From positions 1 through 52,233 of IMG/VR virus record IMGVR_UViG_3300037151_000077: a stretch of DNA of 52,233 bases. One strand, written 5' to 3'. The translations under genes and the position numbers were made by a program. Positions 15,930-50,688 of this stretch are shown here, one piece after another. Numbering within the stretch: position 1 is the stretch's first letter; every line of letters begins with the position of its first letter. The notes below the pieces were generated by a model. That model made no database searches, was not told where the DNA came from, and saw nothing but the letters and a program-made list of their open reading frames with translations. Source of the DNA: a virus.

Positions 15930-16337
15930 ATGCCGCAACGAAGAGTTTCAACCAAAGCTTTGAAAGCGCGCGGAGCTTTTCTCCGCCATCCCGAACGTGC
16001 GCGAGCGCGAGCTCGTGAGCCGAAGTACACAGGACCTCTTGGCGCTCCACCAGAAAAGATGTCTATCGCTCGCAAGGCATTGTGGGCCGAACTTTCCGCC
16101 ATTGTTCCTGAAGGCGTTCCCGAAAAATCCGATCGCTGGATGTTCGAGGTGCTGGTTTGTCTGATGGAAGACTTCCGAAAAGGAATAGCGCGCGGCGGGG
16201 ACGTAAGCCAGCTGCTAAACCTGCTCGCAAAGTTAGGAATGACGCCGTCCGATCGAAGCCGCGTCACACCAAACGCGCCGCCATCTCCGCAGAAAGACAA
16301 GTGGGCAGAATTCGCGCAGCCTGCGAAGACGCAGTAG
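15930..16337 (+). CDS. terS: terminase small subunit
   Basis: 135 residues. Basic N-terminus (PQRRVSTKALKARGAFLRHPERARARAREP), then PLGAPPEKMSIARKALWAELSAIVPEGV, typical of P27-like small terminases, and a helical oligomerisation part (DRWMFEVLVCLMEDFRKGI). It should form the ring that recognises the packaging site and recruits TerL. The gene lies between the HNH gene and TerL, as expected. Confidence 0.8.
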   Translation: MPQRRVSTKALKARGAFLRHPERARARAREPKYTGPLGAPPEKMSIARKALWAELSAIVPEGVPEKSDRWMFEVLVCLMEDFRKGIARGGDVSQLLNLLAKLGMTPSDRSRVTPNAPPSPQKDKWAEFAQPAKTQ

Positions 16338-18166
16338 AAACAGATGCTTCGCCACATGTCACTTCATCGCATCGCTACATCGCTGCTGTTCTTGACGGGA
16401 GCATTCCTTCCTGCAAGTGGGTGCGTCTCGCCTGCGAACGTCAGCTCCGCGATCTCAAGCAATCTGAAGACGAAGCTTTTCCGTATCGATTCGACAACGC
16501 TGCAGCAGAGAAGGTTTGCAGATTCGTTGAACTCAGTCCACACATTAAAGGTAAGCGGTTTGCCGGCCAGCTCATCCATCTCGAAGACTGGCAATGCTTC
16601 ATTCTCACCACGGTTTTCGGATGGCTCCACAAATTCACCAAGCTCCGTCGTTTCCGCCGGGCTTATTCGGAGATCGCGAAGGGAAACGGGAAATCCGCAC
16701 TCACGTCGGCCGTATCGAACTACATGGCCTTTGCAGAAGGCGAGCCCGGGGCTGAGGTCTACTCGGCAGCGACCAATCGAGACCAGGCTAAGGTGGTCTG
16801 GTCCGTATCCCACGCCATGCTTCGTGCGATGCCGGACTTCTGCGAACGCGCCGGCGTCCATCCAGCTGCGCACTCGATCGATCAGATTGCCACAAACTCT
16901 TTCTTCCGCGCGCTCAGTCAAGATGCCAACTCAGCCGAAGGGAAGATCCCCTATTTCGTCTGCGTCGACGAGCTCCACGCCCATCCTACCCGCGACCTCT
17001 ACGACAACCTCGACACTGCGAATGGCAAGCGCGACGGATCTCTGCTCTGGGCAATCACCACGGCCGGCAGCGATCGCGCCGGGATCTGCTACGAGGTCCG
17101 CAGCTACATCCTCAAGATTCTTGAATGCGTCGTACAGGACGACTCTGTCTTTGGAATCGTTTACACCATCGACGATGAGGACGAATGGTTCGCGGGCCCG
17201 GAAGTGTGGCGCAAAGCGAATCCGAACTGGGGCATCTCCGTCGACCCCTTCGAAATCGGAACGAAGATCCAGCGCGCGCTTCAGGTCAGCAGCTCTCAGC
17301 CTACGATCCAGACCAAGCACCTTAATAAATGGGTCAATGCCGATCACGCATGGATGGACATGCAGCGCTGGGCGAAATGCGCAGACGCTGCGCTCGAGGA
17401 AACCGCTTTCTCCGGGAAGCAGTCCATCCTCGGTCTCGATCTTGCTTCCAAGCTCGATCTCCTCGCCAAGCTCAAACTGTTCTGGAAAGACATTCCGCTC
17501 ACCGTCGCAACTGAATCGTGCGGGCAGGGCCAGTGCGACGCGAAAGATTGCAAGAATGTCGCCCTTCTTTTTCGCACCAGCAACGCAAAACACATCTGCG
17601 AGACTCACCGCAACCGGATCCTCGAGCACAAAACCTCGAAGCGTCATTACTACGCCTTTGGTGATTACTGGACTCCCGAGGAACGAGTCGAAAAGTCCGC
17701 GAATTCGCAATATAAGGGATGGGTCATCGATGAACACCTTCACACCTGCCCGGGCGAGACAAATGATTACGACATAGTAGAGGACTCGATCCGCGCCGAC
17801 TGCCGAGAGTTCGAGGTTCTCGAAGTTGCACACGATCAGTACCAGGCCGTGACCCTCGTGAATCACCTGGGACCCGAGGGAATCGTGATGGTCGAGGTCC
17901 CGCAGCTTCCGAAGTACCTTTCGGAACCGATGAAGGAACTCGAGGCCGCAGTCTATGACGGCCGCTTCCACTTCGACGGCGACCCGGTTCTTACCTGGGC
18001 GGTTTCAAACGTTGTCTGTCATCGCGATAAAAACGACAACTTGTTCCCGACAAAAGAGACTTACGACAAAAAGATCGATCCTGTGACGGCTCTTCTCACT
18101 GCGCTCAACCGCGTTATGGCCACACCCGACAGTGACGGCGGCGACGCGAAGTTTGTCTTTATCTAG
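16301..18166 (+). CDS. terL: terminase large subunit (HK97 type)
   Basis: 621 residues from GTG 16301 (37 bases inside terS); the frame is open back to an ATG at 16157, but the alignable part begins with RYIAAVLDGSIPSCKWVRLACERQL. Walker A is AKGNGKSA around residues 126-133 and Walker B is FVCVDELHAH near 219-228. The nuclease domain starts with GLDLASKLDL near 380. Within that domain lies a Cys/His-rich insert (CGQGQCDAKDC ... HICETH, DNA about 17515-17612) that I do not expect in the family. It powers DNA packaging at the portal and cuts concatemers. Confidence 0.92.
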   Translation: MGRIRAACEDAVETDASPHVTSSHRYIAAVLDGSIPSCKWVRLACERQLRDLKQSEDEAFPYRFDNAAAEKVCRFVELSPHIKGKRFAGQLIHLEDWQCFILTTVFGWLHKFTKLRRFRRAYSEIAKGNGKSALTSAVSNYMAFAEGEPGAEVYSAATNRDQAKVVWSVSHAMLRAMPDFCERAGVHPAAHSIDQIATNSFFRALSQDANSAEGKIPYFVCVDELHAHPTRDLYDNLDTANGKRDGSLLWAITTAGSDRAGICYEVRSYILKILECVVQDDSVFGIVYTIDDEDEWFAGPEVWRKANPNWGISVDPFEIGTKIQRALQVSSSQPTIQTKHLNKWVNADHAWMDMQRWAKCADAALEETAFSGKQSILGLDLASKLDLLAKLKLFWKDIPLTVATESCGQGQCDAKDCKNVALLFRTSNAKHICETHRNRILEHKTSKRHYYAFGDYWTPEERVEKSANSQYKGWVIDEHLHTCPGETNDYDIVEDSIRADCREFEVLEVAHDQYQAVTLVNHLGPEGIVMVEVPQLPKYLSEPMKELEAAVYDGRFHFDGDPVLTWAVSNVVCHRDKNDNLFPTKETYDKKIDPVTALLTALNRVMATPDSDGGDAKFVFI

Positions 18167-35143: not shown

Positions 35144-36529
35144 ATGATCTCCTCCACCTCCAATTTTCAAGCCGCGCTCGCCGCCTTCTCGAACGGCAAC
35201 ATCGTCGTCCAGGTGGTGATCGAAGGCTACTCGCGCGTCTTTACCGACTACCCCGACGGCATTGCCGGCCACTATCCGTGGATTGTTTCGGTCGACGACT
35301 TAGACCTGACCTTAAACGATCTCAGCGGAGGAGCCGACCAGCGCACTGGAGGCGTGACGGTGCAGGACGTGGCTGGATTCATCACCGGCGATTTTCCCGG
35401 TTTCGTGTTCGAGGGAAAGCAGATTCAGATCAACGTTGGCTTCCCAGGCCTGGCACAAATCGATTACGCGACCGTGTTCACCGGATTCATCGACACGGTG
35501 AGCTCCGCCAACGCCAACCTGGAATACTACATTCAGTTCTCCGACGTTCAGACCAAGCTCGCCGCGGTCATCTACCAGACGGGCGACGATGGCGGATCCA
35601 CCTCGTCGACCAACACGAAAACAGTAAGCGGGCATCCCCTGGCGATTCTGATGAACATCTGCCAGCAGCTCGGCGTTCCCTGCGACACCACGAAGATCAC
35701 GGCTTACATGAACGGACCGTTCGCCGGCACGATCTTCAGCTTCGAGCTGAACCAGGCGCCGGCCGCGGTCGACTTCATCAAAGCGCAACTGATGAAACCG
35801 CTCGGTGGCTACATGTGGGTCAACGCCGCGGGCCTGGTGACCGTCAATTTCTTTTATCCGCTCGCGGGGCCCGTCGCCGTGGGATCGTTCTCGCGCAATA
35901 ACTGGCTGGCCATCCCGGAGGCCGGCCAGACCGCCATGGTCAACACCGTGCAGATGCAGTTCGACCTCGATGACTCCAATGCCGACAGCTCCGGCAATTA
36001 CCTTTCTTCCGAAACCCTGAACTATGGGCCGAGTTATGCGCTCTACGGCAATCTCTCGAGCGAATCGACGATCAATGCAGATGGCGTCCGGAGCGCGTTT
36101 CAGGGCTTCTTCATTGCGGCGCTGACGAGCCGACTGATTTTCATGCGCTACGGCTTCAAGAATCTGACCTTCGACTCCGAGAGCTCCGGTGGATCGAACC
36201 CCGATTCCTTTTGGAACACGCTCCTCTACGAGCCTGGGGATATCGTCTCCGTGACGCATCCGCAGATCCCGGACCGCGCCGCCGGCGTGATGGGACTCAC
36301 CAACAAACTCTTCGAGATGCTGAATAAGACGATCAAGTTCAGCGAAGGCACGTTGGTGTACTCGATGATCGACGCCTCGTATCTCGAAGACTTCGGCGAC
36401 TACAAGATTGCACCGTTTGGCGAAGCCTACTACGCCGCGGCGAGCTCAGGCGATAAGACCGAGTACATGTTCTTCTGCAACGCCAGTGACCAATACTCGA
36501 ACGGCGATCCCGCGCATATTTTAGGCTAA
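35144..36529 (+). CDS. tail hub/baseplate protein
   Basis: 461 residues, beta-rich. Segments NIVVQVVIEGYSRVFTDY, FPGFVFEGKQIQINVGFPGL, TGFIDTVSSANANLEYYIQFSD and PGDIVSVTHPQIPDRAAGVMGL resemble phage tail hub proteins (gp27/Gp44-like). The order Dit then hub supports this. No peptidase motif seen. The ribosome site is weak. Confidence 0.6.
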   Translation: MISSTSNFQAALAAFSNGNIVVQVVIEGYSRVFTDYPDGIAGHYPWIVSVDDLDLTLNDLSGGADQRTGGVTVQDVAGFITGDFPGFVFEGKQIQINVGFPGLAQIDYATVFTGFIDTVSSANANLEYYIQFSDVQTKLAAVIYQTGDDGGSTSSTNTKTVSGHPLAILMNICQQLGVPCDTTKITAYMNGPFAGTIFSFELNQAPAAVDFIKAQLMKPLGGYMWVNAAGLVTVNFFYPLAGPVAVGSFSRNNWLAIPEAGQTAMVNTVQMQFDLDDSNADSSGNYLSSETLNYGPSYALYGNLSSESTINADGVRSAFQGFFIAALTSRLIFMRYGFKNLTFDSESSGGSNPDSFWNTLLYEPGDIVSVTHPQIPDRAAGVMGLTNKLFEMLNKTIKFSEGTLVYSMIDASYLEDFGDYKIAPFGEAYYAAASSGDKTEYMFFCNASDQYSNGDPAHILG

Positions 36530-36724: not shown

Positions 36725-39397
36725 ATGGGTCAGCCAACTTTTGTCCAGAAAATCGACGCTTCAAACGCGAACGCGAGTTCATTGACTCTCACTCCGTCCG
36801 CGGCCACAACCGCTGGCAACCTGTTGCTGGTCGGCATTCTGCTGAATGCGAACGGCGCCCAGACTCCAGCCGCGGTGGCGGGAATCATCGATTCGGCGGG
36901 CACTCCCGTGGTCGCCGGCATCTCGACCGGAGTCCCGGTCAATACCTGGACGCCTCTCGCGAGCAATTCCGACGACGGCGTTTTTCTCCAGTGGTGGATC
37001 TGTAAGGGGGCAGTCTCGATCACGGATCTCGTGATCAGCCTGACTTATCCGCAGTCGATCATCGCCTTCGCGATGGAATACAACTCGGCGAACGGGATCA
37101 CGAACCCGATCTTTCAGACGCTTTTGTCGAATCAGAACACGATCACAACCGAGTACATCAAGGAGACGGCATCGACTTTCCCGAACTCCGGGGCCCAGCT
37201 GATGATTGGCCTCTTCGCGATGCTCGGCGACACCTTCAACGCGACGCCGCTCGAGGGAACCAACCGCGCAACCAATGATCTGAACATCCCTCCCGCTCTT
37301 TCCTACCAGGTGCTCGAGAACGGAACGGTCGACGAGACTGGCCTGTTGAACTTAACCGCGGTGAGCGCAACCCAGCTCGCGACCGTGGCCAACGTCGGGA
37401 CGAGCACGATGCAGTGCTTTTATCTTTTGATCTCTGGCGGCCTGGTGCTGAATACGCCTCCCGGCTTGTCGGATCAACCGGACGCATCGCTGACAGTCGG
37501 CGAGTTCGCGCTTGGCATTCAGCTGGCAAAGATTTCAGGCAACGCCGCTCTCGGCATGACGAGGATGGAGTTCTTTCAAGGCGTGTACACGAACGGCGAG
37601 ACGGTTGACCTTCCGGTTTCACCGGTCGATGGCTACGAGTACCAGCAGAACGAGCTCACCTACGTCTGGGGAATCTATTCGACCTGCAATACCGGCAATG
37701 GGTGGATTACCGGGCCGCAGGCTCTTTGGTATGCCCAATGGGGCGTCGACCAGGAGACGGGCCTTGTCTCGAGCGAAGAGTGGTATCGCGCGGATGGCGC
37801 GGCCGGCATCTCGAACGACGGCTATCTCCAGGTCTTCACCATCGCGCAGCGCCAGCAGCAGACGCTGCAGCTGGCGGAGATTCCGACCTACACCGATCTT
37901 CCTGCGGCCATCTTCAAGACCGATCTGGCTTACTCCGAAGATCTGATGATCGACCTGAACAACAATTCAAAGTTCACGGTGGTCGGGCAAGAGTGCATCT
38001 CGATGGGAGAGTTCTACAACGGTCAAACCGTTCCGACGCCGGTCTCGCCCGCGGACGATTACGCCTATTCCTACGGGGAAGTGACGTTCATCTTTTCCTG
38101 GCGCTGGACGACGGGGCAGCTGGGGTATGTCCAGCTCGCATGCCCGCCGTACTATACCCTGGCTTCGCTCAACGCCGCGATCAGCTCAAGTGGCGTGGTG
38201 ACGTGCGCCGTCGGCATGATGGGCGATGGCGGCGAAAACTACACGTCTTACAACGCCCTCGGCCGAATCGCGGTCTTTGCACTCTGCCAGCGTCAACCGC
38301 GCTGGTCGGTGCCATGGAACGCCGCGCCGTGGGACAACGTCGGAGGCAAGAACGCATCGTTCATCATCGGCTCGGGTTTGACCGCGAACAATCCGGACGC
38401 TGGCGGTTACGGCGGTCCCTACTCTCCTGCAGGCCTCCAGATTGGCGGGCCGACCATCATCAAAGTCACAGCGGGACAGACTTACATCTTGAGTTACGTC
38501 GGGGGAACGATCCCGGTTCATAACTCCTACGGAACTTTGATCGGACCGCTTGGTGAGGTTGGAACGACAGAAGCCGGCGTGACTCCTTCTCCAGGCTCTT
38601 ATGTCTCCGGTGGACCGAACACCTCGCAGTCGTGCATCGGATGCTACACCGACGCTCTGGGGAACATCGTGGGATCTCCGTTTGTTGTGGGAACCGCTCC
38701 GCTCTCTTTGACGATCCCATCCGGCGCGACCCAGATCCAGCTCGGCAACAACGACTCCTATGGTTCCTGGCCGATCACTCCGACTTACGCGAATTACAAC
38801 CAGGGCGCGTGGCAGTTCCTCATCAACCGCTACGTCCCGGTCGTAGGGAACAAGTTCGCCGAGATCGACAACTCTCTGTTCTATCCCGGTGAAGCGATTC
38901 CCGCCGGCATCGCCGCACAGATCAATCAAAACATCCTGGAGGCCTCGCTCTCGCCGGAGTTCTTTGGACCGACACTCTACGCTCCGGGCGCCACGATCCC
39001 GACGCCAGTCTCTCCTCTCGACGGCTATGCGTATTCGAGAGCGGAGCTGACCTACATCTGGGAGTGGGCTGAGATGACGCCCGGCGGCTGGCCACCGAAT
39101 AGTGGCTCCAACAATCGCACAGCCATGTTCGCGGCGAACATCAACCAATCGACCGGCGTAATTACGAACACGGTGGTCAGCGGCGAAACCTCCTATGTCA
39201 TCTGGAGGCTCGAGCCCGGTGGACCGTACCAGGCGGAGACGACAAACGGGAAAATCTCGGTCACCGTCGTCGGCTTCCGCGCCGCGCAGCAGACCGCGAT
39301 CACGACGCCGGCAACAGTGAACACACCGCCGAGCGATACCGGTTCCGCGATCACCGATCAGCCGACTCAGACGCAAGTCTTCATCAATGGTGTCTAG
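36725..39397 (+). CDS. large tail protein with three-fold repeated domain
   Basis: 890 residues, beta-rich. The first 245 residues resemble a surface domain with SLTLTPSAATTAGNLLLVGI. A recurring unit with PVSPxDGYxYxxxELTYxW appears near 298, 438 and 757 (PVSPVDGYEYQQNELTYVW, PVSPADDYAYSYGEVTFIF, PVSPLDGYAYSRAELTYIW). Between the last two lies a Gly-rich domain (GGYGGPYSPAGLQIGGPT). Probably a tail-tip or fibre protein contacting the host. No enzymatic motif found. Confidence 0.65.
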   Translation: MGQPTFVQKIDASNANASSLTLTPSAATTAGNLLLVGILLNANGAQTPAAVAGIIDSAGTPVVAGISTGVPVNTWTPLASNSDDGVFLQWWICKGAVSITDLVISLTYPQSIIAFAMEYNSANGITNPIFQTLLSNQNTITTEYIKETASTFPNSGAQLMIGLFAMLGDTFNATPLEGTNRATNDLNIPPALSYQVLENGTVDETGLLNLTAVSATQLATVANVGTSTMQCFYLLISGGLVLNTPPGLSDQPDASLTVGEFALGIQLAKISGNAALGMTRMEFFQGVYTNGETVDLPVSPVDGYEYQQNELTYVWGIYSTCNTGNGWITGPQALWYAQWGVDQETGLVSSEEWYRADGAAGISNDGYLQVFTIAQRQQQTLQLAEIPTYTDLPAAIFKTDLAYSEDLMIDLNNNSKFTVVGQECISMGEFYNGQTVPTPVSPADDYAYSYGEVTFIFSWRWTTGQLGYVQLACPPYYTLASLNAAISSSGVVTCAVGMMGDGGENYTSYNALGRIAVFALCQRQPRWSVPWNAAPWDNVGGKNASFIIGSGLTANNPDAGGYGGPYSPAGLQIGGPTIIKVTAGQTYILSYVGGTIPVHNSYGTLIGPLGEVGTTEAGVTPSPGSYVSGGPNTSQSCIGCYTDALGNIVGSPFVVGTAPLSLTIPSGATQIQLGNNDSYGSWPITPTYANYNQGAWQFLINRYVPVVGNKFAEIDNSLFYPGEAIPAGIAAQINQNILEASLSPEFFGPTLYAPGATIPTPVSPLDGYAYSRAELTYIWEWAEMTPGGWPPNSGSNNRTAMFAANINQSTGVITNTVVSGETSYVIWRLEPGGPYQAETTNGKISVTVVGFRAAQQTAITTPATVNTPPSDTGSAITDQPTQTQVFINGV

Positions 39398-39435
39398 ATC
39401 TGGTGTGTAGCTCTGGCGCCTAGATCTGGTGTGTA
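39394..39435. repeat. duplicated 16-base stop-codon context
   Basis: CTAGATCTGGTGTGTA occurs at 39394-39409 and 39420-39435. The first copy contains the stop of the large tail protein, and both contain additional stops. Found in a 44-base intergenic gap. Confidence 0.8.
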
Positions 39436-39441
39436 AATAAA

Positions 39442-40257
39442 ATGTCAACCCAACCTCTGAACCTCAATTCGACGACGCCGGCGGCTCCTTCTGGATCCGT
39501 GAATCTACCATTCGCCGCGGATGCTCCGAATGCCGATCTCGCCATCGTGCGGAACGTCTCGATCTCGGCACCGGTGATGACGAATCTCATCGGAGGCCTG
39601 GTGCCGGCGCCTCCGAATCTTGCAACGGAGTATCTGGATGGGACGGGACATTTCTCGACGCCGGCGGGTGGCGGCGGCGGTGGCGGCTCTGCGATCGGGG
39701 GCAACGTCTGCGACCTTCCTTGGATCGGAACTCCCGGCTCGCCGAATACGTCATCGTTCAATATCAATGGGTACGCCTTCTGCCAGTTCATCGGCGGCAA
39801 CGCGATTCTCAATCCGTCTCTCAGTTGGACGATATCTTTCGACTACGCTGGCACGGGGGCTCAGGCGTTCATCGAGTTCACCTTGCTGCGGACGCTCAAG
39901 GGAAGCCTGGCGGTGACGGACGTGACGCGTATCACCTTCGCCTCGAGCGCCACTCCCACCTTCTCATCGCCCGGAGTGCAGACCTCGGACACGATGACGG
40001 TCACGATCGATGCCCTGCATGACTACTACTTCATCGTGAACGGCGGCTATACCGGGGTCACCAACGACATAGTCTCGAACAGCTACGGCGGCGGGAACCT
40101 GCCGACGATGCAGGGGTTCAATACGAACGTCGGCGGCGGAACCGCACTGGCCACGTCTTGGGCGAGCTTCATCGGCGGAGGCTCCGGTTCGTGGAGCGCA
40201 GCATGCCCGCTCGGGACTTCGCAGTTCTGGCTGTCGGACTGGATTAGAGAAAGTTAG
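39442..40257 (+). CDS. putative receptor-binding tail tip protein
   Basis: 271 residues. The N-terminus LNSTTPAAPSGSVNLPFAAD with RNVSIS is a pattern I associate with attachment segments of tail proteins. A Gly-rich linker of eight glycines (GGGGGGGS) near residue 76-83 follows, then a beta-sandwich-like domain (INGYAFCQFIGGNAILNPSLSWTISFDY; FLRT-like strands, HDYYFIVNGGY). Last gene of the tail block, immediately before the glycosyltransferases; a receptor-binding role is inferred. Confidence 0.55.
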   Translation: MSTQPLNLNSTTPAAPSGSVNLPFAADAPNADLAIVRNVSISAPVMTNLIGGLVPAPPNLATEYLDGTGHFSTPAGGGGGGGSAIGGNVCDLPWIGTPGSPNTSSFNINGYAFCQFIGGNAILNPSLSWTISFDYAGTGAQAFIEFTLLRTLKGSLAVTDVTRITFASSATPTFSSPGVQTSDTMTVTIDALHDYYFIVNGGYTGVTNDIVSNSYGGGNLPTMQGFNTNVGGGTALATSWASFIGGGSGSWSAACPLGTSQFWLSDWIRES

Positions 40258-40263
40258 TTCACC

Positions 40264-41751
40264 GTGCGGATCCTCATCGCCATCACCAGCTGTCACAATT
40301 TCCGCGATCGCGCGGACGCCGTGCGCCAGACCTGGGCCTCGGAAGTCGAAGGCGCCGACGTGCGTTATTTTCTCGGCCGAAGCGAAACGCCGGTGAAGTC
40401 GCAGTCGCATCCGGACGAGATCATTCTCGACTGCCCCGATGGCTATCACTATCTCTCGCAGAAAACGCAGCTCATCCGGCGCTGGGCCCTCGAGAACGGC
40501 TACGACTATCTCTGGAAAGTCGACGACGACACGTACGTACGCCCGGAGCGATTGCTTGCTGACTTTCAGAACCTCGATTATGTGGGGAGACTTCGCGGAT
40601 GCTCGGGAAGTTATCCCGGTCCCTACTGCAGCGGATTCACTTATGGCTTAAGCCGCAAGTCGCTGGAGCTGCTGGCACCGATCGAGTGGGGAGCAAGTGA
40701 CGATTTTTCGGAGGACCGCTGGACCGCAAACAAGCTGCTCTCGCTCGGCATCAGCCCGCACAATGAGCCGCGATTCGTAGTGCAGTCCTCGAAGGCCTGC
40801 GCCATCAGCGGCAGGGAAGCGCCGTTGGTTGGTAACGCTGTCATCGCATCTTGCGAGTATTCGCCGAAGGAGATGCGGCGGGTGCATGCGGAGTTCAAAT
40901 CCGGAAAACGATCGGCCCAGGGCGAATATCACAAACCAGCGGGATCTCTCTCGCGCGTGGCGGTGATGGTCAAGACTTTTCTCCGCGACGGTTATCTCAT
41001 GGCCTGTCTCGATGGCCTGGAAAAGAATTTCGCGGACACCAAGATCGTCGTCGTGGACGATGGTTGGGAGACCGGGGTTACATCGACCTTCAACAAAATC
41101 TCACGCGCAGCGGACATGCGGCGCAAGGGCCATGCCTGGATCAATATCCCCTTCGACTCCGGCTTCGGCGCCAAGGCGAACGTGGCGATCGGACATTGCG
41201 ATTCGGAATATGTGCTGATAGCGTCCGATGATTTTGATTTTGCGGATCCCGCGGTTCGCGCCGGCGTGGAGTCGATGCAAAGAGTTCTGGACGCTGTGCC
41301 GTCGCTTGCTCTGGTCAGCGGGCGCGTTGATCGCAATCTCTATGAGTTCTGTTGGGAAGCCGGCGAGAAGAGCCTGCGCGAAATCCCCAGATACCACGGC
41401 TCGGGCGAAGTGGACGGCACGAAGTATCACCTGTGCGATTTGACCGTGAACTATTCCCTCATCCGGACGAAAGTCTTTCAGCCGCAGCACGGGGGGATCC
41501 GCTGGGATGGCGGTAACGTCAAGATCGGCGGTGGAGAACACTCGGCATTCTTCATCGACCTGCAGCGCTCGTATTGGGGCGTCGCTTATGTGGAAGGCGC
41601 TAACATCAATCAGCTGCCCCGCAATTTTCAGTGGATGCACAAGAGCTACCCGACGATGCGGGCGCGCGCGCGAACTCCCGGAAGACCGTGCCTGAAAGCA
41701 CGCGGGATCGATCTTTACATTTTGGCGGATGGGACGGCGGAGGTATCGTGA
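40264..41751 (+). CDS. two-domain glycosyltransferase: GT31-like plus GT2-like
   Basis: 495 residues from GTG 40264. Residues 1-230: MRILIAITSCHNFRDRADAV, RQTWASE, and YDYLWKVDDDTYV with DDD at 87-89 as metal/sugar-nucleotide site, and DDFSEDRWTANKL as acidic catalytic motif: a GT31 (beta-1,3-galactosyl/fringe-like) pattern. Residues about 235-490: LSRVAVMVKTFLRDGYLMACLDGL, KIVVVDDGW, GFGAKANVAIGHCDSEYVLIASDDFDF: GT2-like. It may modify virion proteins or host surface polysaccharide. The fusion of two transferase folds is unusual for a phage of this size. Confidence 0.75.
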   Translation: MRILIAITSCHNFRDRADAVRQTWASEVEGADVRYFLGRSETPVKSQSHPDEIILDCPDGYHYLSQKTQLIRRWALENGYDYLWKVDDDTYVRPERLLADFQNLDYVGRLRGCSGSYPGPYCSGFTYGLSRKSLELLAPIEWGASDDFSEDRWTANKLLSLGISPHNEPRFVVQSSKACAISGREAPLVGNAVIASCEYSPKEMRRVHAEFKSGKRSAQGEYHKPAGSLSRVAVMVKTFLRDGYLMACLDGLEKNFADTKIVVVDDGWETGVTSTFNKISRAADMRRKGHAWINIPFDSGFGAKANVAIGHCDSEYVLIASDDFDFADPAVRAGVESMQRVLDAVPSLALVSGRVDRNLYEFCWEAGEKSLREIPRYHGSGEVDGTKYHLCDLTVNYSLIRTKVFQPQHGGIRWDGGNVKIGGGEHSAFFIDLQRSYWGVAYVEGANINQLPRNFQWMHKSYPTMRARARTPGRPCLKARGIDLYILADGTAEVS

Positions 41752-41975
41752 AGCTGGTTCCGGAGTCTGGCCTGGCGATCTTTTTCTCGGCTTATCCATC
41801 GCCCAATAAAGACCTCGGCGCAATTGAAGGAACAGAAATGCTTCTTTCCGGTCGACCTGCTGGAATCGAACCGTTCAATCGTAAAGGGACACTCGCCAGC
41901 CATCCAAAGACCATCCGGCCAGTGAATGTCAGCCTCCAACGGATGAGAGCAGATGTCGCAGGTGAAGTGCCGCAC
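41715..41975 (-). CDS. antisense small Cys-pair protein
   Basis: 86 residues on the minus strand between two plus-strand glycosyltransferases. It has FTCDICSHPLEAD at the start and KKHFCSFNCAEVF later, a two-knuckle zinc fold commonly seen in phage proteins. The opposite strand has no persuasive frame here. It overlaps the end of the two-domain transferase by 37 bases, tail to tail. Function unknown. Confidence 0.5.
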   Translation of the reverse strand: MRHFTCDICSHPLEADIHWPDGLWMAGECPFTIERFDSSRSTGKKHFCSFNCAEVFIGRWISREKDRQARLRNQLHDTSAVPSAKM

Positions 41976-41989
41976 TCTCGGACTCTAGC

Positions 41990-42625
41990 ATGAAAATTTT
42001 GATCGCAGTAGTCCAATGCACCCGTGACCTCTGGCGGATCCCCGCACACCGGGAGATGCTCGCCGGCCATGGCGCTGACGTGCGATTCTTTTACGGCAAT
42101 CAGAAGGCGGGCGCGCTCGATGTGGTCCGAAGCGACGAGATCGAGCTCGAAACGGATGATGCCTATTACGCACTGACCAAGAAAGTCTGCGGCATCTTCG
42201 AATGGGCTCTCCAGCGCGGCTACGATTTCGTTTTCAAGGTAGATTCCGATACCTGGCTCGACGTCCCAAAGCTTCTGACAGCGGGCTTCGAAGCGCATGA
42301 TTGGGTCGGTTTAATGGGGGACAAAGGGGCGAGCGGCGGAGTAGGACACTGCACTTCGGGCGGCGTGGGAATCTGGTTGAGCCGTCACGCCATGGAAACT
42401 TTTCTCCGTCACTATCCAACAATGCCGGGCGGGAAGATGCACTACTTCGATGACTGGGCATTGTCGCTGACGTTAGCGGATGCGGGGCTCAAGCCCGTGA
42501 ATTCCGATCTATTGTGGAACTTCGATCTCGGGCCGGCAGACAAGGAAACTCTTATAAGCTGGCACGGATGGACGCCGGACGCGGCCCATGTTGAGCAGCG
42601 CGGCGGCGGGGAGTGGGGAAAATGA
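41990..42625 (+). CDS. GT31-like glycosyltransferase
   Basis: 211 residues. Starts MKILIAVVQCTRDLWRIPAH, with HREMLAGHGADVRFFYG as in the other two copies, YDFVFKVDSDTWL with the DSD at residues 85-87, and HYFDDWALSLTLADAG as acidic catalytic segment. GT31-like fold by motif order. ATGA overlap with the next gene. Likely transfers a hexose from a nucleotide sugar; acceptor unknown. Confidence 0.7.
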   Translation: MKILIAVVQCTRDLWRIPAHREMLAGHGADVRFFYGNQKAGALDVVRSDEIELETDDAYYALTKKVCGIFEWALQRGYDFVFKVDSDTWLDVPKLLTAGFEAHDWVGLMGDKGASGGVGHCTSGGVGIWLSRHAMETFLRHYPTMPGGKMHYFDDWALSLTLADAGLKPVNSDLLWNFDLGPADKETLISWHGWTPDAAHVEQRGGGEWGK

Positions 42626-42918
42626 TCAAGGGGTTGATCTACCATCGGCGCTGGTTCGTTCCGAATTTCGTGGCCGCGCGCTTGTTCGATTACGCTGCCC
42701 ATGATCGGCTTCCGTTATGGCAGTTGTTCTTTGCGCCCAGGAGCTTCCGGAGCTTCGCAAAGGGTCTGTGGTGGAATTGCTCTACGTGGACGCTCGACAG
42801 ACTCCCTTGGTTCGCACGCAAGCATGCCATTAACGCGCTCGTCGGCCGAGAACTGCTCAGAGACTTCAGGGCGCTTAATCACGATCACCCGAATTTCGAT
42901 CTGTGCATCAAGTGGTAA
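42622..42918 (+). CDS. hypothetical protein in glycosyltransferase cluster
   Basis: 98 residues, starting inside the transferase stop (ATGA). Very rich in aromatic and basic residues (YHRRWFVPNFVAARLFDYAAH; GLWWNCSTWTLDRLPWFARKH). It could be a peripheral membrane protein. No family recognised. Confidence 0.5.
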   Translation: MIKGLIYHRRWFVPNFVAARLFDYAAHDRLPLWQLFFAPRSFRSFAKGLWWNCSTWTLDRLPWFARKHAINALVGRELLRDFRALNHDHPNFDLCIKW

Positions 42919-42922
42919 AGCC

Positions 42923-43540
42923 ATGGAAACTTCAGAACTAATTCGCAGGGCGCTCGATCTCGGAGCCGTGCAAGTCCCGGAAGAAATATCCGCGCTCGTC
43001 GACCTTCTCAAAAAGCATCAGCCGCGGAACATTCTGGAGATCGGATCCGAGTCCGGAGGAACGTTCTATCTCTGGTGCCAGTTGGCGAAGATTGGCGGGC
43101 TAAAGATTTCGCTCGATCTACCGAGCGGCGATTCGGGGAGCGGCACCTATCGTGATCCAGTCGCACTCGCCGAGCGTACCGCACAGTTCAAGGGATGGTC
43201 GGCCAACGTCCGCGTCGTCACGGGAGATTCGCATGCGCTTGAAACGTGGCGGGAAGTGAACAAATTCCTAGGTCCGCATGCACCCACGCTCGATTTCCTT
43301 TTCATCGACGGAGACCACTCCTATGAAGGCGTGAAGAAAGATTTCGAAGACTATCGCTGCTTTGTGCGACCAGGTGGATTGATCGCGTTCCATGACATCG
43401 TGGACAGCGAGTTTCACCGGAAGCGTGGATGCCAGGTGGCTAAGTTCTGGGAAGAACTGCGGCGCCAACCCGTAACTTTTCCCGCTCAGGAATTCGATCA
43501 TGGGTTGGAATGGGGCGGGATCGGCGTGGTCACCGTTTAG
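42923..43540 (+). CDS. SAM-dependent methyltransferase (Methyltransf_24-like)
   Basis: 205 residues from the ATG at 42923. The SAM-binding motif NILEIGSESGGTFYLW is at about residues 34-49, an acidic strand LDFLFIDGDHSYEGVKKDFEDY follows, then RPGGLIAFHDI. This is the O-methyltransferase/CmcI-like pattern used on sugars and small molecules. In this cluster it probably methylates the glycan made by the transferases; inference from context. Confidence 0.75.
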   Translation: METSELIRRALDLGAVQVPEEISALVDLLKKHQPRNILEIGSESGGTFYLWCQLAKIGGLKISLDLPSGDSGSGTYRDPVALAERTAQFKGWSANVRVVTGDSHALETWREVNKFLGPHAPTLDFLFIDGDHSYEGVKKDFEDYRCFVRPGGLIAFHDIVDSEFHRKRGCQVAKFWEELRRQPVTFPAQEFDHGLEWGGIGVVTV

Positions 43541-43759
43541 GTAGCGGAGCGCGCCCATCATACAAATTTCCAGACAGGCGTGGCAAACGGGGTACGGTCC
43601 GTACCGCGCCGAGGGCGGAGCGTCATCCGGCAGCCAGAAACCTTCGCCGCAATCGATGCAGACTTTCCACACACACGGCGCCGGCTCGCTGGTGAACGCG
43701 GTCTGAACGAGCGGCGGCAATCGAAGAAAAACTCGAATCCTGTTCCGCAACCAAAACAC
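43268..43759 (-). CDS. possible antisense Cys-pair protein
   Basis: Open minus-strand frame of 163 codons that covers the otherwise empty 230 bases after the methyltransferase and 270 bases of its 3' end. The part outside the methyltransferase reads KVCIDCGEGFWLPDDAPPSA and YPVCHACLEIC, a zinc-ribbon-like pair. The rest may be only the antisense of the methyltransferase. Reported with low confidence. Confidence 0.35.
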   Translation of the reverse strand: MFWLRNRIRVFLRLPPLVQTAFTSEPAPCVWKVCIDCGEGFWLPDDAPPSARYGPYPVCHACLEICMMGALRYLNGDHADPAPFQPMIEFLSGKSYGLAPQFFPELSHLASTLPVKLAVHDVMERDQSTWSHKAAIVFEIFLHAFIGVVSVDEKEIERGCMRT

Positions 43760-43773
43760 ACCCGAACTCTAAC

Positions 43774-44037
43774 ATGACCCTCTTCACCAGAATTGCTCTT
43801 CTCGAATTCTTTTCTGCTCTGCTCATCGTCGCAGCGACCAGAGCCTATGTCCTGGGGAACTACCGGGCGACGGCCGTTGTCGAGGTTGCATTCATCACGC
43901 AATGGTTCTACGCGCGCGGGATCTCTTTCGATGATGCGGGATCGAGAAGCTGGAAGCTTGGATATCCGGCCTATCTCCTCGGCGCCGTGGCTGGCACGCT
44001 GATCGGGCTTTTCCTCTCGAAACGGTTCACCTCATGA
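43774..44037 (+). CDS. small membrane protein in glycosyltransferase cluster
   Basis: 87 residues with hydrophobic stretches LLEFFSALLIVAATRAYVL, VVEVAFITQWFYARG and YPAYLLGAVAGTLIGLFL, so two to three membrane helices. ATGA overlap with the downstream transferase. A flippase- or anchor-like partner is conceivable; no family match by eye. Confidence 0.6.
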   Translation: MTLFTRIALLEFFSALLIVAATRAYVLGNYRATAVVEVAFITQWFYARGISFDDAGSRSWKLGYPAYLLGAVAGTLIGLFLSKRFTS

Positions 44038-44810
44038 AAGCACTGATCGCAATCTCTTCGTGCGGCGACTTCGAAGCGAACGGGAACAACCAGGCTATGA
44101 GGGATACCTGGCTTAAAGATGTAAATATATTTACAAATCTCGACTACAAGTTCTTTTTCGGAGTAGGCCAGAACGCTCCCCAGCTCGAGGACTCAGTCCT
44201 CTTGCCCGACGTCGACGATGGCTACGGATCCCTCACCTACAAAACGAGGGCGTCGCTGCGCTGGGCGCATGAACGCGGATACACGCATGTCTTCCGCTGC
44301 TTTCCAGATACGTTTGTCAGCGTCGATCGGCTGATGGCCTGCCATCCTCACGAATTCGATTTCTATGGCGACTTCAGAAGCGAAGAAGGCGGACGCCCCG
44401 ATGGTGGAACGGGGAAGCAGATGCCCACTCTTCAGGAAGCTCAGAACTATGCATCCGGTGGCGCAGGGTACTGGTTGAGCCGCAGAGCTTTTGAATACCT
44501 GCTCGATGCTCCAATCCTCGGAGTCTGGCGAGATGAGCTGATGACCTACGTCGAGGATCTGTGGGTTGGAAACATCTTGGGAAAATGCGGGACGGTGCTG
44601 CGCTACTTCGATGACACAAGATTCTGTAACCATGGCTCCCGTATGTGGCCGAACCTGCGAAATGACCAGATCACCGCGCACCTGTCCTGCCCGGAGCGCT
44701 TCGACAAAGCCTTCATGTATGCGGCCCACGCGGCGTTCAGCATGAAGCTCACCATGGAAGAAGTCGAGCGGCTCAGGATCAGCTTCCTTCGAGACATCCC
44801 GAAATCTTAA
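44034..44810 (+). CDS. GT31-like glycosyltransferase, altered DXD
   Basis: 258 residues. Starts MKALIAISSCGDFEANGNNQ, with MRDTWLKD as in GT31 enzymes, YTHVFRCFPDTFV in place of the DXD (the first Asp is Phe90, the middle is Pro91, only Asp92 remains), GGAGYWLSRRAFEYLL and YVEDLWVGNILGKCG (the EDVWVG-type motif). The loss of two metal-site residues suggests altered metal dependence, a changed donor site, or inactivity. Last gene of the cluster. Confidence 0.7.
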   Translation: MKALIAISSCGDFEANGNNQAMRDTWLKDVNIFTNLDYKFFFGVGQNAPQLEDSVLLPDVDDGYGSLTYKTRASLRWAHERGYTHVFRCFPDTFVSVDRLMACHPHEFDFYGDFRSEEGGRPDGGTGKQMPTLQEAQNYASGGAGYWLSRRAFEYLLDAPILGVWRDELMTYVEDLWVGNILGKCGTVLRYFDDTRFCNHGSRMWPNLRNDQITAHLSCPERFDKAFMYAAHAAFSMKLTMEEVERLRISFLRDIPKS

Positions 44811-44911
44811 CAATTTATTAAGTTCGCGGACCCTGGGCTGTTCGGGCTTGGTCGCCTTCCCAGTTCCGGGGTTTCGTGATTCACCCCTGCACACCCGAGG
44901 CAAATCCCAAA

Positions 44912-45355
44912 ATGAATATTCCTTACGACGACAACGACCTCCAGAGCCTCGCCCTGTGCGCGTGGAAAGAAGCCCGCGGCGAAGGCTCCGATGGAATGCG
45001 AGGGGTCATGCACGTCATTTTGCATCGCGCCATCAAGTGGTATGGCGATCATGCGGAGAGCGTTCACACCGCGGTGTACGCAAAGAACCAGTTCACCTCG
45101 ATGTCGGTGCCAAGCGATCCCGAATTCAACCTGCAGCCGAAAGATGGCGACGCTCAGTTCGCCTACTGCGCGCAGCTCGCTCCCACAATCTTGAATGAAC
45201 AAGATGAGGACATTACGCACGGCGCGCTCTATTACGGCGACCTGAAGTACTGCACGTCGGGCTGGTTCTCCGAAAACATCTCCGGACCTGATGGACAAGG
45301 GACGCCGGCCCATCCGCTGAAGGCCTCGATCGGGCGCCAGGTGTTTTTCGGATAA
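44912..45355 (+). CDS. cell wall hydrolase, SleB/Hydrolase_2 type (endolysin)
   Basis: 147 residues from the ATG at 44912. It has CAWKEARGEGSDGMRGVMHVILHRA, where the glutamate of EARGE is the usual catalytic residue, and later FTSMSVPSDPEFNL and YYGDLKYCTSGWF. The family hydrolyses peptidoglycan. With the holin-like gene at 45632 it forms the lysis cassette. The region before it (44811-44911) shows only a short AT-rich inverted repeat. Confidence 0.8.
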   Translation: MNIPYDDNDLQSLALCAWKEARGEGSDGMRGVMHVILHRAIKWYGDHAESVHTAVYAKNQFTSMSVPSDPEFNLQPKDGDAQFAYCAQLAPTILNEQDEDITHGALYYGDLKYCTSGWFSENISGPDGQGTPAHPLKASIGRQVFFG

Positions 45356-45367
45356 AGCGTTTTTCGG
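45343..45367. repeat. duplicated 9-base stop-codon context
   Basis: GTTTTTCGG at 45343-45351 (before the endolysin TAA) and again at 45359-45367 (before a TAG). Third place in the window where a gene end is copied just downstream. Confidence 0.7.
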
Positions 45368-45571
45368 CTAGCTCAGTCTCGGGCGCTCATCTCGACGATC
45401 GGCGCGTGGCGGAATTTTCGCGGCCACTGGCGACCCAGCGGCCGCCAACTGTTTATCCATCTTCTCGACCATCGAGATGAGCCAGGCCAGATCTTTCAGC
45501 GTGGCGCCGTACTGGGCCTTGCGACGAATGTCGGCGAAGCGGGTTGCGTCCGTTTTGTTCATGGCTTCCAT
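45368..45571 (-). CDS. small helical protein, minus strand
   Basis: 67 residues from 45571, or 64 from an ATG at 45562. Helical and charged (TRFADIRRKAQYGATLKDLAWLISMVEKMDKQL), with a Pro/Arg-rich end. Convergent with the endolysin gene. No ribosome site stands out. Function unknown. Confidence 0.45.
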   Translation of the reverse strand: MEAMNKTDATRFADIRRKAQYGATLKDLAWLISMVEKMDKQLAAAGSPVAAKIPPRADRRDERPRLS

Positions 45572-45631
45572 GGCCTGAGATTTTTACACCGCGAGCGGAA
45601 AACTGACAACTGCAAAAGGAGAAATCAAAAT

Positions 45632-45931
45632 ATGAATCCAAACACCAGTCCGAACTTTGCCCTGCGCCTCTGGTGCGGGCTGCGCGACTTTGTCCTGCCC
45701 ATCTGGCGCAGTCTTCCAATTTACGTACAGACCGGAATCGTGATTTTCGCCTCGGCCGCCGGCACTTTTCTCGGAGGCTGGCTCTGGGACGGGCCTTCCT
45801 GCTGGACGTGGCTCTGTCTCAAGCACACCCTCGGCGCAGCGTGTGCGGCCGGAATCGCCGCGGAACGGACCTTCAAGATGAGGCCTGGATGTGGACCTCA
45901 CGCCGATGAGACGCCCTATACGGGTTCCTGA
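45632..45931 (+). CDS. holin-like membrane protein
   Basis: 99 residues with a strong ribosome site (AAAAGGAGAAATCAAAAT). Hydrophobic segments LPIYVQTGIVIFASAAGTFLGGWLW and WTWLCLKHTLGAACAAGIAA, then a polar tail. Two membrane helices beside an endolysin gene fit a holin. No direct family match. Confidence 0.6.
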   Translation: MNPNTSPNFALRLWCGLRDFVLPIWRSLPIYVQTGIVIFASAAGTFLGGWLWDGPSCWTWLCLKHTLGAACAAGIAAERTFKMRPGCGPHADETPYTGS

Positions 45932-45994
45932 CTAAGCTTAACGACCCTTCCACAATCAACCCCGCCATCGCGCGATGGCAGAAAAGAGCAATTC

Positions 45995-46312
45995 ATGAAG
46001 ATCGCAATTTTAGAAACCAAAGCACTGGCCTATGCCAAAGACATCAAAGACGGCATTGAAGCGGCCGGCGAAGATGCCGTGAAGCTTGCCACGTTCATGC
46101 AGAACAACCAGGCGAAGATCGTCGCGCTGGCGAGCCTGGCAGGACCGGAAGCGGCTGCCGTCACGAGCGCCGGCACTGGGCTCCTCAACCTGGCGATCAC
46201 AGCGGTCAAGGGTGCGGGCGATGCAGCCTCCGCCAATGGCGTGAACGTCAGTCTGGATGCGGCGGCGGTTGCCGAAGTCAAGGCAGCCATCACGGCGGTC
46301 GAGAAGATCTAA
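45995..46312 (+). CDS. hypothetical small Ala/Val-rich protein
   Basis: 105 residues (MKIAILETKALAYAKDIKDG; IVALASLAGPEAAAVTSAGTGLLNLAITAV; VNVSLDAAAVAEVKAAI). Weakly hydrophobic middle. Located in the lysis region; possibly membrane-active or an accessory protein, but no evidence beyond context. Confidence 0.55.
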   Translation: MKIAILETKALAYAKDIKDGIEAAGEDAVKLATFMQNNQAKIVALASLAGPEAAAVTSAGTGLLNLAITAVKGAGDAASANGVNVSLDAAAVAEVKAAITAVEKI

Positions 46313-46422
46313 ATCCACTTCCTGCTGCGGCAACGGAACCGACTCTAACTTTGGCTCGGCCAGCAGGGATTTTCCTCAAGCATAAAGTTCAGTTTGCCGA
46401 AAAGGCCGAATTCGCATATTCC

Positions 46423-47079
46423 ATGAAAACCGTACTATTATCAGCGTTACTGCTGCTCACGCTCGTTCTATCGGGCGGGGTCCTGGTGCTCGTGAAAGAC
46501 GTTCATCAGGACCTCGCGGCGGTGCACCAGAACCTCTCCTCGCTTGACCAGGTCCTCGGGCAGGCCTCCGCCACGGCAAAACATCTCAATCAAACTGTGG
46601 GGAAGGTCGATGGGGTTGTGAGCACTCTCAATGACGCAGCCACCGAAGAGAAAGCAAACTGGCAGGCAACGAGCAAGGAAACGGCCAAGACCGCAAGAGA
46701 CGTCCGGGCCCTCGTGGATGACTTTAGAAAATCAGCGCTCCATGTGAACCTTGTAACCCTGCCGTCGATCGACTCGCAGATTTCGGCGAACGGCGATCAG
46801 CTCAGGATGACAGTTGAGAAGTTGGGAGAATCGGCCGACGGCGTTACAGCGATCGCCGGCACATTGAATACTCGACTCGGCGATCCGCAAGTGACCGAAT
46901 TGCTGGCCCACGCCAATGTAATCGCTGGGCACTTCGAAACCATCGCTGCGAATTCCGCCCTCATGTCCGCTGATATGCAGTTAGCTGTACATCGCCTGGC
47001 GGCGCCGCCGACAAAGTTTCACCAGTTCCTAGACGCGACCTGGACCGCGGCGAAGGTCGGTTCCCTCTTTATCCCGTAA
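46423..47079 (+). CDS. membrane-anchored coiled-coil protein
   Basis: 218 residues from the ATG at 46423. One N-terminal membrane helix (LLSALLLLTLVLSGGVLVLV), then a long periplasmic coiled coil with repeated HQDLAAVHQNLSSLDQVLGQASATAKHLN, TVGKVDGVVSTLNDAATEEK, and TVEKLGESADGVTAIAGTLN. The outline suits a spanin-like or structural envelope protein in the lysis cassette. No lipobox or second spanin partner was found, so this is a guess. Confidence 0.5.
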   Translation: MKTVLLSALLLLTLVLSGGVLVLVKDVHQDLAAVHQNLSSLDQVLGQASATAKHLNQTVGKVDGVVSTLNDAATEEKANWQATSKETAKTARDVRALVDDFRKSALHVNLVTLPSIDSQISANGDQLRMTVEKLGESADGVTAIAGTLNTRLGDPQVTELLAHANVIAGHFETIAANSALMSADMQLAVHRLAAPPTKFHQFLDATWTAAKVGSLFIP

Positions 47080-49488: not shown

Positions 49489-50688
49489 ATGCCCGCTTTA
49501 GCCCAGCTGCTGGCTTTCCCCTCGAGACCGAAACAGCGTCTCGCCATATTGCCAGTCGAAGCGGCCGCTCCGGATCTGATTCTCACCCCGCCCGTTCCAC
49601 CCCCTCCGAAAAAACCTCGCCGCCGGCGCAAGCCTCCGGTCTCGCTCTCGGACGCGCAGCTGCTGGCTTTGCTCGAGCGGGCAAAAGCTCATCGCGAGCG
49701 CGACTGGGTCATGATTCTGGTGACCTACTGGCACGGGCTGCGGGCTTCTGAGACGATCTCCCTGCGCGAGCGCGACTTCGACCTGGCGGAAGGGACGGTC
49801 AAATTCGTCCGCGGCAAGGGGTCGGATGGCGGAGAGCAGACGCTGCAGGAGCACGAGAATCCGCTGCTCAATGAGCGCGCGGCGATCGCAGCCTGGCTGA
49901 AGGACCGCGGCCAGTTCGGAGTGAAGGGCGGAGCGAAACGGCAAGTTGGGAGGAACCATGCGCACAATTCAGATTCTTCTGTGGATTCTGGTCGTTCTCG
50001 AAGTGTCGGAGTGGATCACGTTTCTAATCATCAAGCCGTGGAGGCAGCGCTAGCCGCGAATTCGGCTGAAGGCAAGCAGCCAGCCGGTGGCGATCAAGCC
50101 CATGATCAGCCAGCCGTACCAGGGTATAGCGACGACGACCGAGGCCGCGCATACGCCGAAGGTCAAAACGACGACGGCGATCGCCTGCCAGTGGGACATG
50201 AGAAAAAGATTACACCCTCAAAAACCAGACAAAGTAATGAGATTGTCAGAAATTTGGGGGGTCCCACGAAAGTGCCACCTGGGGATATCTGGGCTTGGCC
50301 GCCTGATAAGCCAGCTGGTGGCTGCAAACCCTCACCCGACCCCTCGCGTGCTGCCCTAGAGCCTCCAGCGCCGCCGCAAACCCCCTCGGATCGTCTCTTC
50401 CCAATCACCCGGCAGCATTTCTGGGCTATCGTTCACGGTTACGCCCTGGCTGCAGGGATCCCCAGGCGCAAGTGTAAAACCCACATGCTGAAGCACACGA
50501 TCGCCAAGCACTTAGTCCGGGCCGGACACCCCTTGAATGAGATCCAGGAGTGGATGGGCTGGTCATCGATCGAGACGATGAACTGGTACACGCGTGCCGA
50601 CGAGGAAGAGCTAGGTCATCGGATCGGTGATAGCATTCGGGCGAAGCAAGGCCTGCGCCAGGTGCAGCAGGGGAGTTTGTTCTCGTGA
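49489..50688 (+). CDS. int: tyrosine recombinase/integrase interrupted by an in-frame insert
   Basis: 399-codon open frame. N-terminal half: SLSDAQLLALLERAKAHRERDWVMILVTYWHGLRASETISLRERDFDL, with the first catalytic Arg in GLRASE near residue 85. C-terminal half: SDRLFPITRQHFWAIV, CKTHMLKHTIAKHLVRAGHPLNEIQEWMGW with the second catalytic site (HMLKHT in place of HxxRH), and NWYTRAD with the nucleophilic Tyr. Between residues about 145 and 300 is a hydrophilic, unrelated stretch. The same DNA codes two tiny membrane proteins (49958-50053 plus, 50050-50199 minus). The integrase may be a functional enzyme with a loop, or two halves of a disrupted gene. Confidence 0.75.
   Translation: MPALAQLLAFPSRPKQRLAILPVEAAAPDLILTPPVPPPPKKPRRRRKPPVSLSDAQLLALLERAKAHRERDWVMILVTYWHGLRASETISLRERDFDLAEGTVKFVRGKGSDGGEQTLQEHENPLLNERAAIAAWLKDRGQFGVKGGAKRQVGRNHAHNSDSSVDSGRSRSVGVDHVSNHQAVEAALAANSAEGKQPAGGDQAHDQPAVPGYSDDDRGRAYAEGQNDDGDRLPVGHEKKITPSKTRQSNEIVRNLGGPTKVPPGDIWAWPPDKPAGGCKPSPDPSRAALEPPAPPQTPSDRLFPITRQHFWAIVHGYALAAGIPRRKCKTHMLKHTIAKHLVRAGHPLNEIQEWMGWSSIETMNWYTRADEEELGHRIGDSIRAKQGLRQVQQGSLFS
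49958..50053 (+). CDS. tiny membrane protein embedded in the integrase frame
   Basis: 31 residues (MRTIQILLWILVVLEVSEWI then TFLIIKPWRQR), a single membrane helix with basic end. The ribosome site GGGAGGAACC directly precedes the ATG. It lies in the +1 frame relative to the integrase and ends with a TAG that shares a CTAG palindrome with the stop of the opposite gene. Too short for family assignment. Confidence 0.5.
   Translation: MRTIQILLWILVVLEVSEWITFLIIKPWRQR
50050..50199 (-). CDS. tiny two-helix membrane protein, antisense in the integrase frame
   Basis: 49 residues (MSHWQAIAVVVLTFGVCAAS, VVVAIPWYGWLIMGLIATGW, LLAFSRIRG): two hydrophobic helices split by IPWYGW. Its TAG (50052-50050) overlaps the TAG of the plus-strand peptide in a CTAG palindrome. 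Such hydrophobicity on an antisense strand is not expected by chance from the hydrophilic integrase frame. Function unknown. Confidence 0.5.
   Translation of the reverse strand: MSHWQAIAVVVLTFGVCAASVVVAIPWYGWLIMGLIATGWLLAFSRIRG

Follow-up and report, generated by a model that had tools for sequence, protein, structure and literature searches.

The window analyzed in this work is an entire virus record of IMG/VR (IMGVR_UViG_3300037151_000077), 52,233 bases in length. It belongs to a tailed phage in which the genes for the terminase, portal, protease, major capsid protein, connectors, tail and tail tip follow each other in one direction. Inside this late structural gene run, between the tail-tip genes and the lysis genes, stands a block at positions 40264–44810 that encodes three GT31-like proteins (gtA, gtB and gtC), a methyltransferase (MT) and a small membrane protein. 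The five genes had been singled out in an earlier sequence-only reading of this DNA, and all of them exist as open reading frames (ORFs). In our opinion, the block is probably a late virion-glycosylation cassette, the enzymes of which would act in the cytoplasm and build an O-methylated oligosaccharide, likely on the tail tip. The locus is organized as follows:

36725–39397, plus strand: tail-tip protein of 890 amino acids (aa) in which a 'PVSPxDGYxYxxxELTYxW' domain is repeated; possible acceptor of the glycan
39442–40257, plus strand: second tip protein, variable, 271 aa, rich in Ser, Thr and Gly; candidate glycan acceptor
40264–41751, plus strand: gtA, fusion of GT31 and GT2 domains with matches to PF01762 and PF00535
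41990–42625, plus strand: gtB, GT31-like glycosyltransferase of 211 aa with the KVDSDT motif; paralog of gtA
42613–42918, plus strand: ORF of 101 aa, of uncertain reality, overlapping the gtB stop
42923–43540, plus strand: MT, S-adenosylmethionine-dependent methyltransferase (Methyltransf_24), probable sugar O-methyltransferase
43774–44037, plus strand: small membrane protein of 87 aa with a homolog in the related contig G004
44034–44810, plus strand: gtC, GT31-like protein of 258 aa with the RCFPDT and EDLW motifs; AlphaFold2 (AF2) model available
44915–45355, plus strand: cell wall hydrolase (Hydrolase_2, PF07486, E 3.2e-9), with which the lysis genes begin and which bounds the cassette

The tip gene (end at 40257) is separated from gtA by only 6 bp, and the start of gtC overlaps the stop of the membrane protein gene by 4 bp. 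The number of promoter- and terminator-like sites in the region 39300–46500 was not above that in shuffled sequence.

In the Pfam analysis gtA matched both PF01762 (Galactosyl_T/GT31; aa 16–103, 35.3 bits with a cut-off of 23) and PF00535 (Glycos_transf_2; GT2 domain at aa 234–405, 24.9 bits with a cut-off of 23.3), so the fusion to a GT2-like domain that had been suggested for one of the genes was confirmed. The scores of gtB (22.5 bits) and gtC (19.9 bits) against the GT31 model were slightly below the cut-off of 23. Nevertheless, we assigned both to GT31 because they are clear paralogs within the set by BLAST (gtB is 36% identical to gtA, E 1.3e-20, and 38% identical to gtC, E 6e-11) and because a joint profile finds GT31 enzymes in the PDB. 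This profile, made from a 37-sequence alignment, matched human B3GalT6 (E 7.6e-17), followed by B3GNT2, C1GALT1 and B3GalT5. With a gtA profile, the first part retrieved GT31 structures and the second part other glycosyltransferase structures, including B4GALNT1.

The AF2 model of gtC based on the same number of sequences (37) had a pLDDT of 86.9 and a pTM of 0.86; an earlier model from five sequences (pLDDT 51.5) was discarded in its favor. Among solved structures (VIA), the model matched human GT31 enzymes, best of all B3GalT6 (Z 19.3 over 206 residues), with B3GalT5 at 19.0 and C1GalT1 at 17.6. Every GT31 entry had a Z score of at least 16.1, while the best entry outside GT31 reached 13.2; chains of the CHSY3-CHPF complex were also among the closest structures. 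The GT31/GT-A fold is modelled for gtC, and for gtA and gtB it rests on homology. Taken by profile and fold, gtA, gtB and gtC are GT31/GT-A enzymes, as the sequence-only reading had proposed, and the gtC model showed no fold unrelated to this type. The opening pattern common to the three proteins corresponds to strand beta-1 of GT31. The R-x-T-W motif is present in gtA and gtC, and gtB has HREML instead. The DXD site, which had been ascribed to all three, was found in gtA (DDD in KVDDDT) and gtB (DSD in KVDSDT) but not in gtC, which is considered below.

MT belongs to Methyltransf_24 (PF13578, E 1.8e-15) and barely passed the Pfam cut-off for RMNT_CmcI (E 3e-5). Its coordinates are given here as 42923–43540; the ORF tool yields a longer frame starting at 42701. 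BLAST revealed matches to MT in six deposited phage records. A profile of the MT orthologs matched PDB entry 6g7d (E 8.5e-6), which we take to be the mycobacterial methyltransferase MeT1. MeT1 methylates mannosides (PMC9883506). Thus, MT is probably a sugar O-methyltransferase, and the methyltransferase of the earlier reading was upheld. Its membrane protein proved to be a product of merely 87 aa with a weak resemblance to GtrA in Pfam (E 0.046, below the cut-off). In NCBIfam nothing above the cut-off was found for gtA, gtB, MT, gtC or the membrane protein. A homolog of the latter, 53% identical, is located between gtA and gtB in G004, and in most relatives no tblastn match to it was revealed inside the cassette. 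By eye, a similar protein was noticed in an unrelated phage (L016:12463–12765), outside its glycosyltransferase genes. Possibly, the small membrane protein represents a separate family of phage membrane proteins.

Three further ORFs should be mentioned. The 101-aa ORF at 42613–42918 had no Pfam or PHROG match, and in the relatives gtB and MT stand too close together to accommodate it. The minus-strand ORF at 43268–43759 was considered as a Cys-rich gene and rejected, its apparent conservation lying opposite the MT frame and being taken as a shadow of MT. In the gap between gtA and gtB, an 86-aa Cys-rich ORF on the minus strand (41715–41975) resembles YacG-like zinc ribbons below the cut-off (E 0.009) and may be a real gene.

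To reveal relatives of the locus, a scan with the tail protein encoded at 35144–36529 was carried out, which gave 17 loci sharing the tail module; two wider scans added further phages with GT31 genes. In the first four relatives (L005–L008), as well as in G004 (L011/L042) and G012 (L023), the genes gtA-gtB-MT-gtC follow the same tail module, and this order holds in every relative with the full set. In L008 an additional 226-aa gene is inserted between MT and gtC. Five gtA orthologs were 68–74% identical to that of the window (tblastn), the others 39–48%; the tail protein 35144–36529 in these five phages was 41–74% identical. The nearest gtB ortholog (65%, tblastn) was found in L023/G012, and the gtB type of the window and L023 differs from that of the other phages. 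The clades formed by the three paralogs are old and for the most part separate. Of the four-fold sites 41–77% differed, while the compared proteins were 52–83% identical, and gtC was about as constrained as gtA. By this measure the cassette proteins are under purifying selection. Since the same gene order recurs in related phages and amino acids are kept at diverged four-fold sites, the block is far beyond what chance would produce.

The position of the cassette was equally regular. In 12 uncultivated phages (the window, L042, L045, L057, L049, L052, L023, L047, L056, L060, L064 and L066) gtA is located after a tail-tip gene. Homologs of the tip protein 36725–39397, the repeats of which appear as multiple self-similar matches in tblastn, occur throughout the phages that share this tail, and most of these have the cassette downstream. 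In the second tip protein (39442–40257) the N-terminal part is kept in several relatives. In two other phages, L062 (= L050) and L065, gtA is the gene immediately after the major capsid gene; in L059 it also comes after the capsid gene, but with an HNH-like ORF between them. All three capsid genes match phrog_10 (E 1e-57 to 1e-65). Because gtA follows either the tip gene (12 phages) or the capsid gene (three), the cassette tracks virion genes and not lysogeny genes. The linkage with tail tips expected by the sequence-only reading was therefore found in the relatives, where the cassette is not scattered. A nucleoside diphosphate (NDP)-sugar epimerase gene is present between gtA and gtC in L047 and L059. 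Genes for collagen-like proteins (PF01391) stand directly before gtA in L023 (5870–6412) and inside the cassette in L059 (11435–12622), and these proteins are possible glycan acceptors as well.

The closest tail, with a tail protein 75% identical to that of the window, belongs to L041. Here only 39 bp separate the tip gene from a transglycosylase gene and there is no tip cassette; three GT2 genes and a methyltransferase gene, unrelated to the GT31 cassette, are instead located between the capsid and connector genes (L041/G013). The GT2 cassette of contig G013, which derives from the same phage as L041, lies at L092:6190–11614 and also includes an unknown protein of 424 aa.

Taken together, these data suggest the following scheme. 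Transcription of the cassette would be late and joint with that of the tail and lysis genes. Its enzymes, soluble and cytoplasmic, would assemble a short oligosaccharide on one of the structural proteins of the phage, either ahead of virion assembly or in the course of it. The acceptor is most likely a Ser/Thr-rich tail-tip protein encoded immediately upstream, a choice suggested by adjacency only. Sugars would be added by gtA, with its GT31 and GT2 domains, and by gtB; gtC may add, or help to add, a further sugar by means of its atypical [F/Y/W]-x-D metal site. MT would cap one of the sugars with an O-methyl group. As a result the tip could be protected or its adsorption altered. We favor modification of a virion protein because of the linkage with tip and capsid genes, the unrelated set of glycosyltransferases and a methyltransferase beside the capsid gene, the soluble character of the enzymes and the late gene run.

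It is also possible, though we consider it somewhat doubtful, that the capsid- and tip-adjacent position represents a modular glycosylation slot that takes up unrelated cassettes (GT31 with MT or GT2 with MT) in exchange for one another, a few of them bringing an NDP-sugar epimerase of their own. In this case GT31 enzymes, including the aromatic-x-D subtype, would act in the cytoplasm of the bacterium, attach O-linked sugars directly to capsid or receptor-binding proteins and provide the virion with an exchangeable sugar coat, while a second and larger set of phages would couple GT31 to a GDP-fucose pathway.

Several observations weigh against virion glycosylation. The 12 tip-linked and three capsid-linked cases come from related contigs, partly fragments, and are not independent events. 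The tip proteins vary from phage to phage, and a shared acceptor motif was not identified in them. Four long contigs that share the tail module (L041, L044, L054 and L055) yielded no GT31 gene, and for L044, L054 and L055 there was no GT2 match either; since these three have the same tail and no cassette, the tail can work without it. Finally, gtC has no DXD site: in its RCFPDT motif Phe replaces the first Asp, and only the last Asp is kept. The Phe-Pro-Asp triplet is invariant among close orthologs, and an aromatic residue occupies the first position in every ortholog. Of 73 phage GT31 domains, 72 retain the last Asp, 48 have D-x-D and 19 an aromatic first residue. Because gtC is about as constrained as gtA, the [F/Y/W]-x-D pattern is best described as a GT31 subtype and not as random decay.

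The same substitution raises the question of whether gtC, and perhaps the whole subtype, is a non-catalytic scaffold for gtA or gtB. CHPF is the less active partner in the CHSY3-CHPF chondroitin synthase, the chains of which are among the structures closest to the gtC model, and such a role would be compatible with virion glycosylation. We regard it as rather unlikely, since the last Asp and the acidic EDLW motif are retained, purifying selection on gtC resembles that on gtA, and GT-A enzymes commonly have metal sites with one variable acidic position. Much less credible is that the cassette is recently captured, non-functional cargo (moron decay). Its patchy presence among the relatives and the deviating gtB type of the window and L023 would fit this, but the ORFs are intact, their order is kept, the genes are tight or overlapping, and the amino acids are strongly constrained where synonymous sites have diverged heavily, which contradicts decay.

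Alternatively, the glycosyltransferases could act on another substrate. Modification of the host surface (lipopolysaccharide, capsule or cell wall glycan), either in the late phase of infection or in the prophage state, might mask receptors and exclude superinfection or keep virions off debris, and this had been offered by the sequence-only reading on equal terms with decoration of the virion. The phage is probably temperate because it encodes a tyrosine integrase (49489–50688, close to the right end of the window), the lysis genes adjoin the cassette, and the small membrane protein is of GtrA-like length with the weak GtrA match mentioned above. At the same time, no flippase, bactoprenol glycosyltransferase or membrane GT-C enzyme was recognised, unlike in gtr clusters; the block lies in the late run and shows no promoter signal above chance; gtA and its associated genes adjoin the major capsid gene in some relatives; and the membrane protein, shifting into the gtA–gtB gap in G004, has no match in the cassette of most others. 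Host-surface modification therefore appears unlikely, and of the two proposals decoration of the virion fits best. Glucosylation of a modified DNA base, as in T4, would be the classical role of phage glycosyltransferases, which act on hydroxymethylated bases (mentioned in PMC9614988). It is very improbable here because none of the scanned window proteins, which covered part of the ORFs, supplies the base chemistry: no base hydroxymethylase, thymidylate synthase homolog or dNTP-modifying enzyme was among them. Besides, three or four different transferases with a methyltransferase suit an oligosaccharide better, and the genes sit in a structural and lysis run.

Database searches revealed no BLAST or tblastn relative of gtA, gtB or gtC in 50,697 deposited phage records, and none of the PHROG families matched them. 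Likewise, no BLAST match was found in deposited phages for the membrane protein, the tail protein 35144–36529 and one GT31 protein of L016. Among plasmids, gtA had only two weak matches, both in Shinella. Scans of GTDB genomes with the gtA alignment and with the terminase alignment gave no relative that could point to a host; the phage is presumably of a soil type. A search of the open literature returned irrelevant matches and no paper on phage GT31, in agreement with the earlier remark that such enzymes are little described. GT31 in viruses is not new as such, since a structure-level search of viral models listed proteins that are Fringe-like or carry the name GT31 and that come from a myovirus, giant viruses and a herpesvirus.

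GT31-like enzymes were also observed in a second group of uncultivated phages (L009, L010, L080, L081, L082, L085, L087, L071, L072 and L016), together with a gene of the GT11 type (fucosyltransferase family). These phages also carry genes for a GDP-mannose 4,6-dehydratase and for a second NDP-sugar epimerase, and in many cases one for a DegT aminotransferase; the gene set varies between members, and several of the cassettes directly follow a tail-fibre-like gene. Apparently, this group encodes a phage-borne pathway of the GDP-fucose type.

Some other features of the window deserve mention. The terminase large subunit (16157–18166) contains a Cys-rich insert of ~48 residues (about 446–494) between conserved parts, which is absent in the closest relative, G004. 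In the integrase, relatives match residues 53–138 and 289–373 only; these blocks are contiguous in G004 and G006, and therefore the window copy has an in-frame insert of ~150 residues (about 139–288). Besides the tyrosine integrase, a serine recombinase is encoded at 14330–14848 (Resolvase, E 8e-42). At 4146–4370, inside a minus-strand ORF (4067–4909), a 9-base unit is repeated 25 times in tandem, with a 27-base higher unit and 87–92% matches.

If the proposed function is true, virion glycosylation would be a recurrent trait of environmental phages and not a peculiarity of mycobacteriophages tied to evading animal antibodies. The enzymes would be kin to animal GT31, and their genes would adjoin the structural protein that is probably modified. 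The purpose of phage glycans (adsorption, protection or assembly) would become testable, and a gene-neighbourhood rule could be used to predict glycosylated virions. In addition, mechanistic and glyco-engineering studies would gain GT31 enzymes that are small and soluble, among them a subtype whose metal site is altered.

The block can be compared with several known systems. The gtr serotype-conversion operons of temperate phages likewise combine phage-carried glycosyltransferases with a small membrane protein; unlike them, the cassette described here has no recognised set of GtrA flippase, GtrB bactoprenol transferase and GtrC (GT-C) and is located in the late structural, not the lysogenic, region. 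Animal GT31 enzymes (B3GalT5/6, B3GNT2, C1GALT1, CHSY/CHPF, Fringe) share with the phage proteins a common profile, fold and acidic motif, as well as R-x-T-W with gtA and gtC and DXD with gtA and gtB, whereas the phage-encoded enzymes are soluble and have no membrane anchor, gtA has a GT2 domain, and gtC carries the aromatic-x-D site. In Chlorovirus PBCV-1, the viral transferases and methyltransferase of A064R/A061L build and O-methylate the terminal part of the capsid glycan (PMC9614988). The logic of viral transferases plus O-methyl capping is the same, and A064R-D1 is also of the GT-A type (Z 13 to the gtC model); in contrast, PBCV-1 is a virus of a eukaryotic alga, its glycan is N-linked, the GT families are others and the domains are fused in one protein. 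The nearest parallel in gene arrangement is provided by mycobacteriophages, the capsid and tail tube proteins of which are reported to be glycosylated (PMC12363180), and virion glycosylation encoded by a phage operon that includes an O-methyltransferase is thus already known (PMC4351075, PMC12363180). In Corndog (Cluster O) the O-methyltransferase gp35 and three genes of the glycosyltransferase type, gp36–38, lie between the portal and protease genes (PMC4351075). Corndog, and also Che8 and Myrna, likewise combine several glycosyltransferases with an O-methyltransferase within the virion gene run, and the Corndog set stands beside head genes, as in L062, L065 and L059. By its published description, Corndog appears to differ from the cassette reported here, which consists of GT31 enzymes, one of them fused to GT2, and mostly follows the tail tip.

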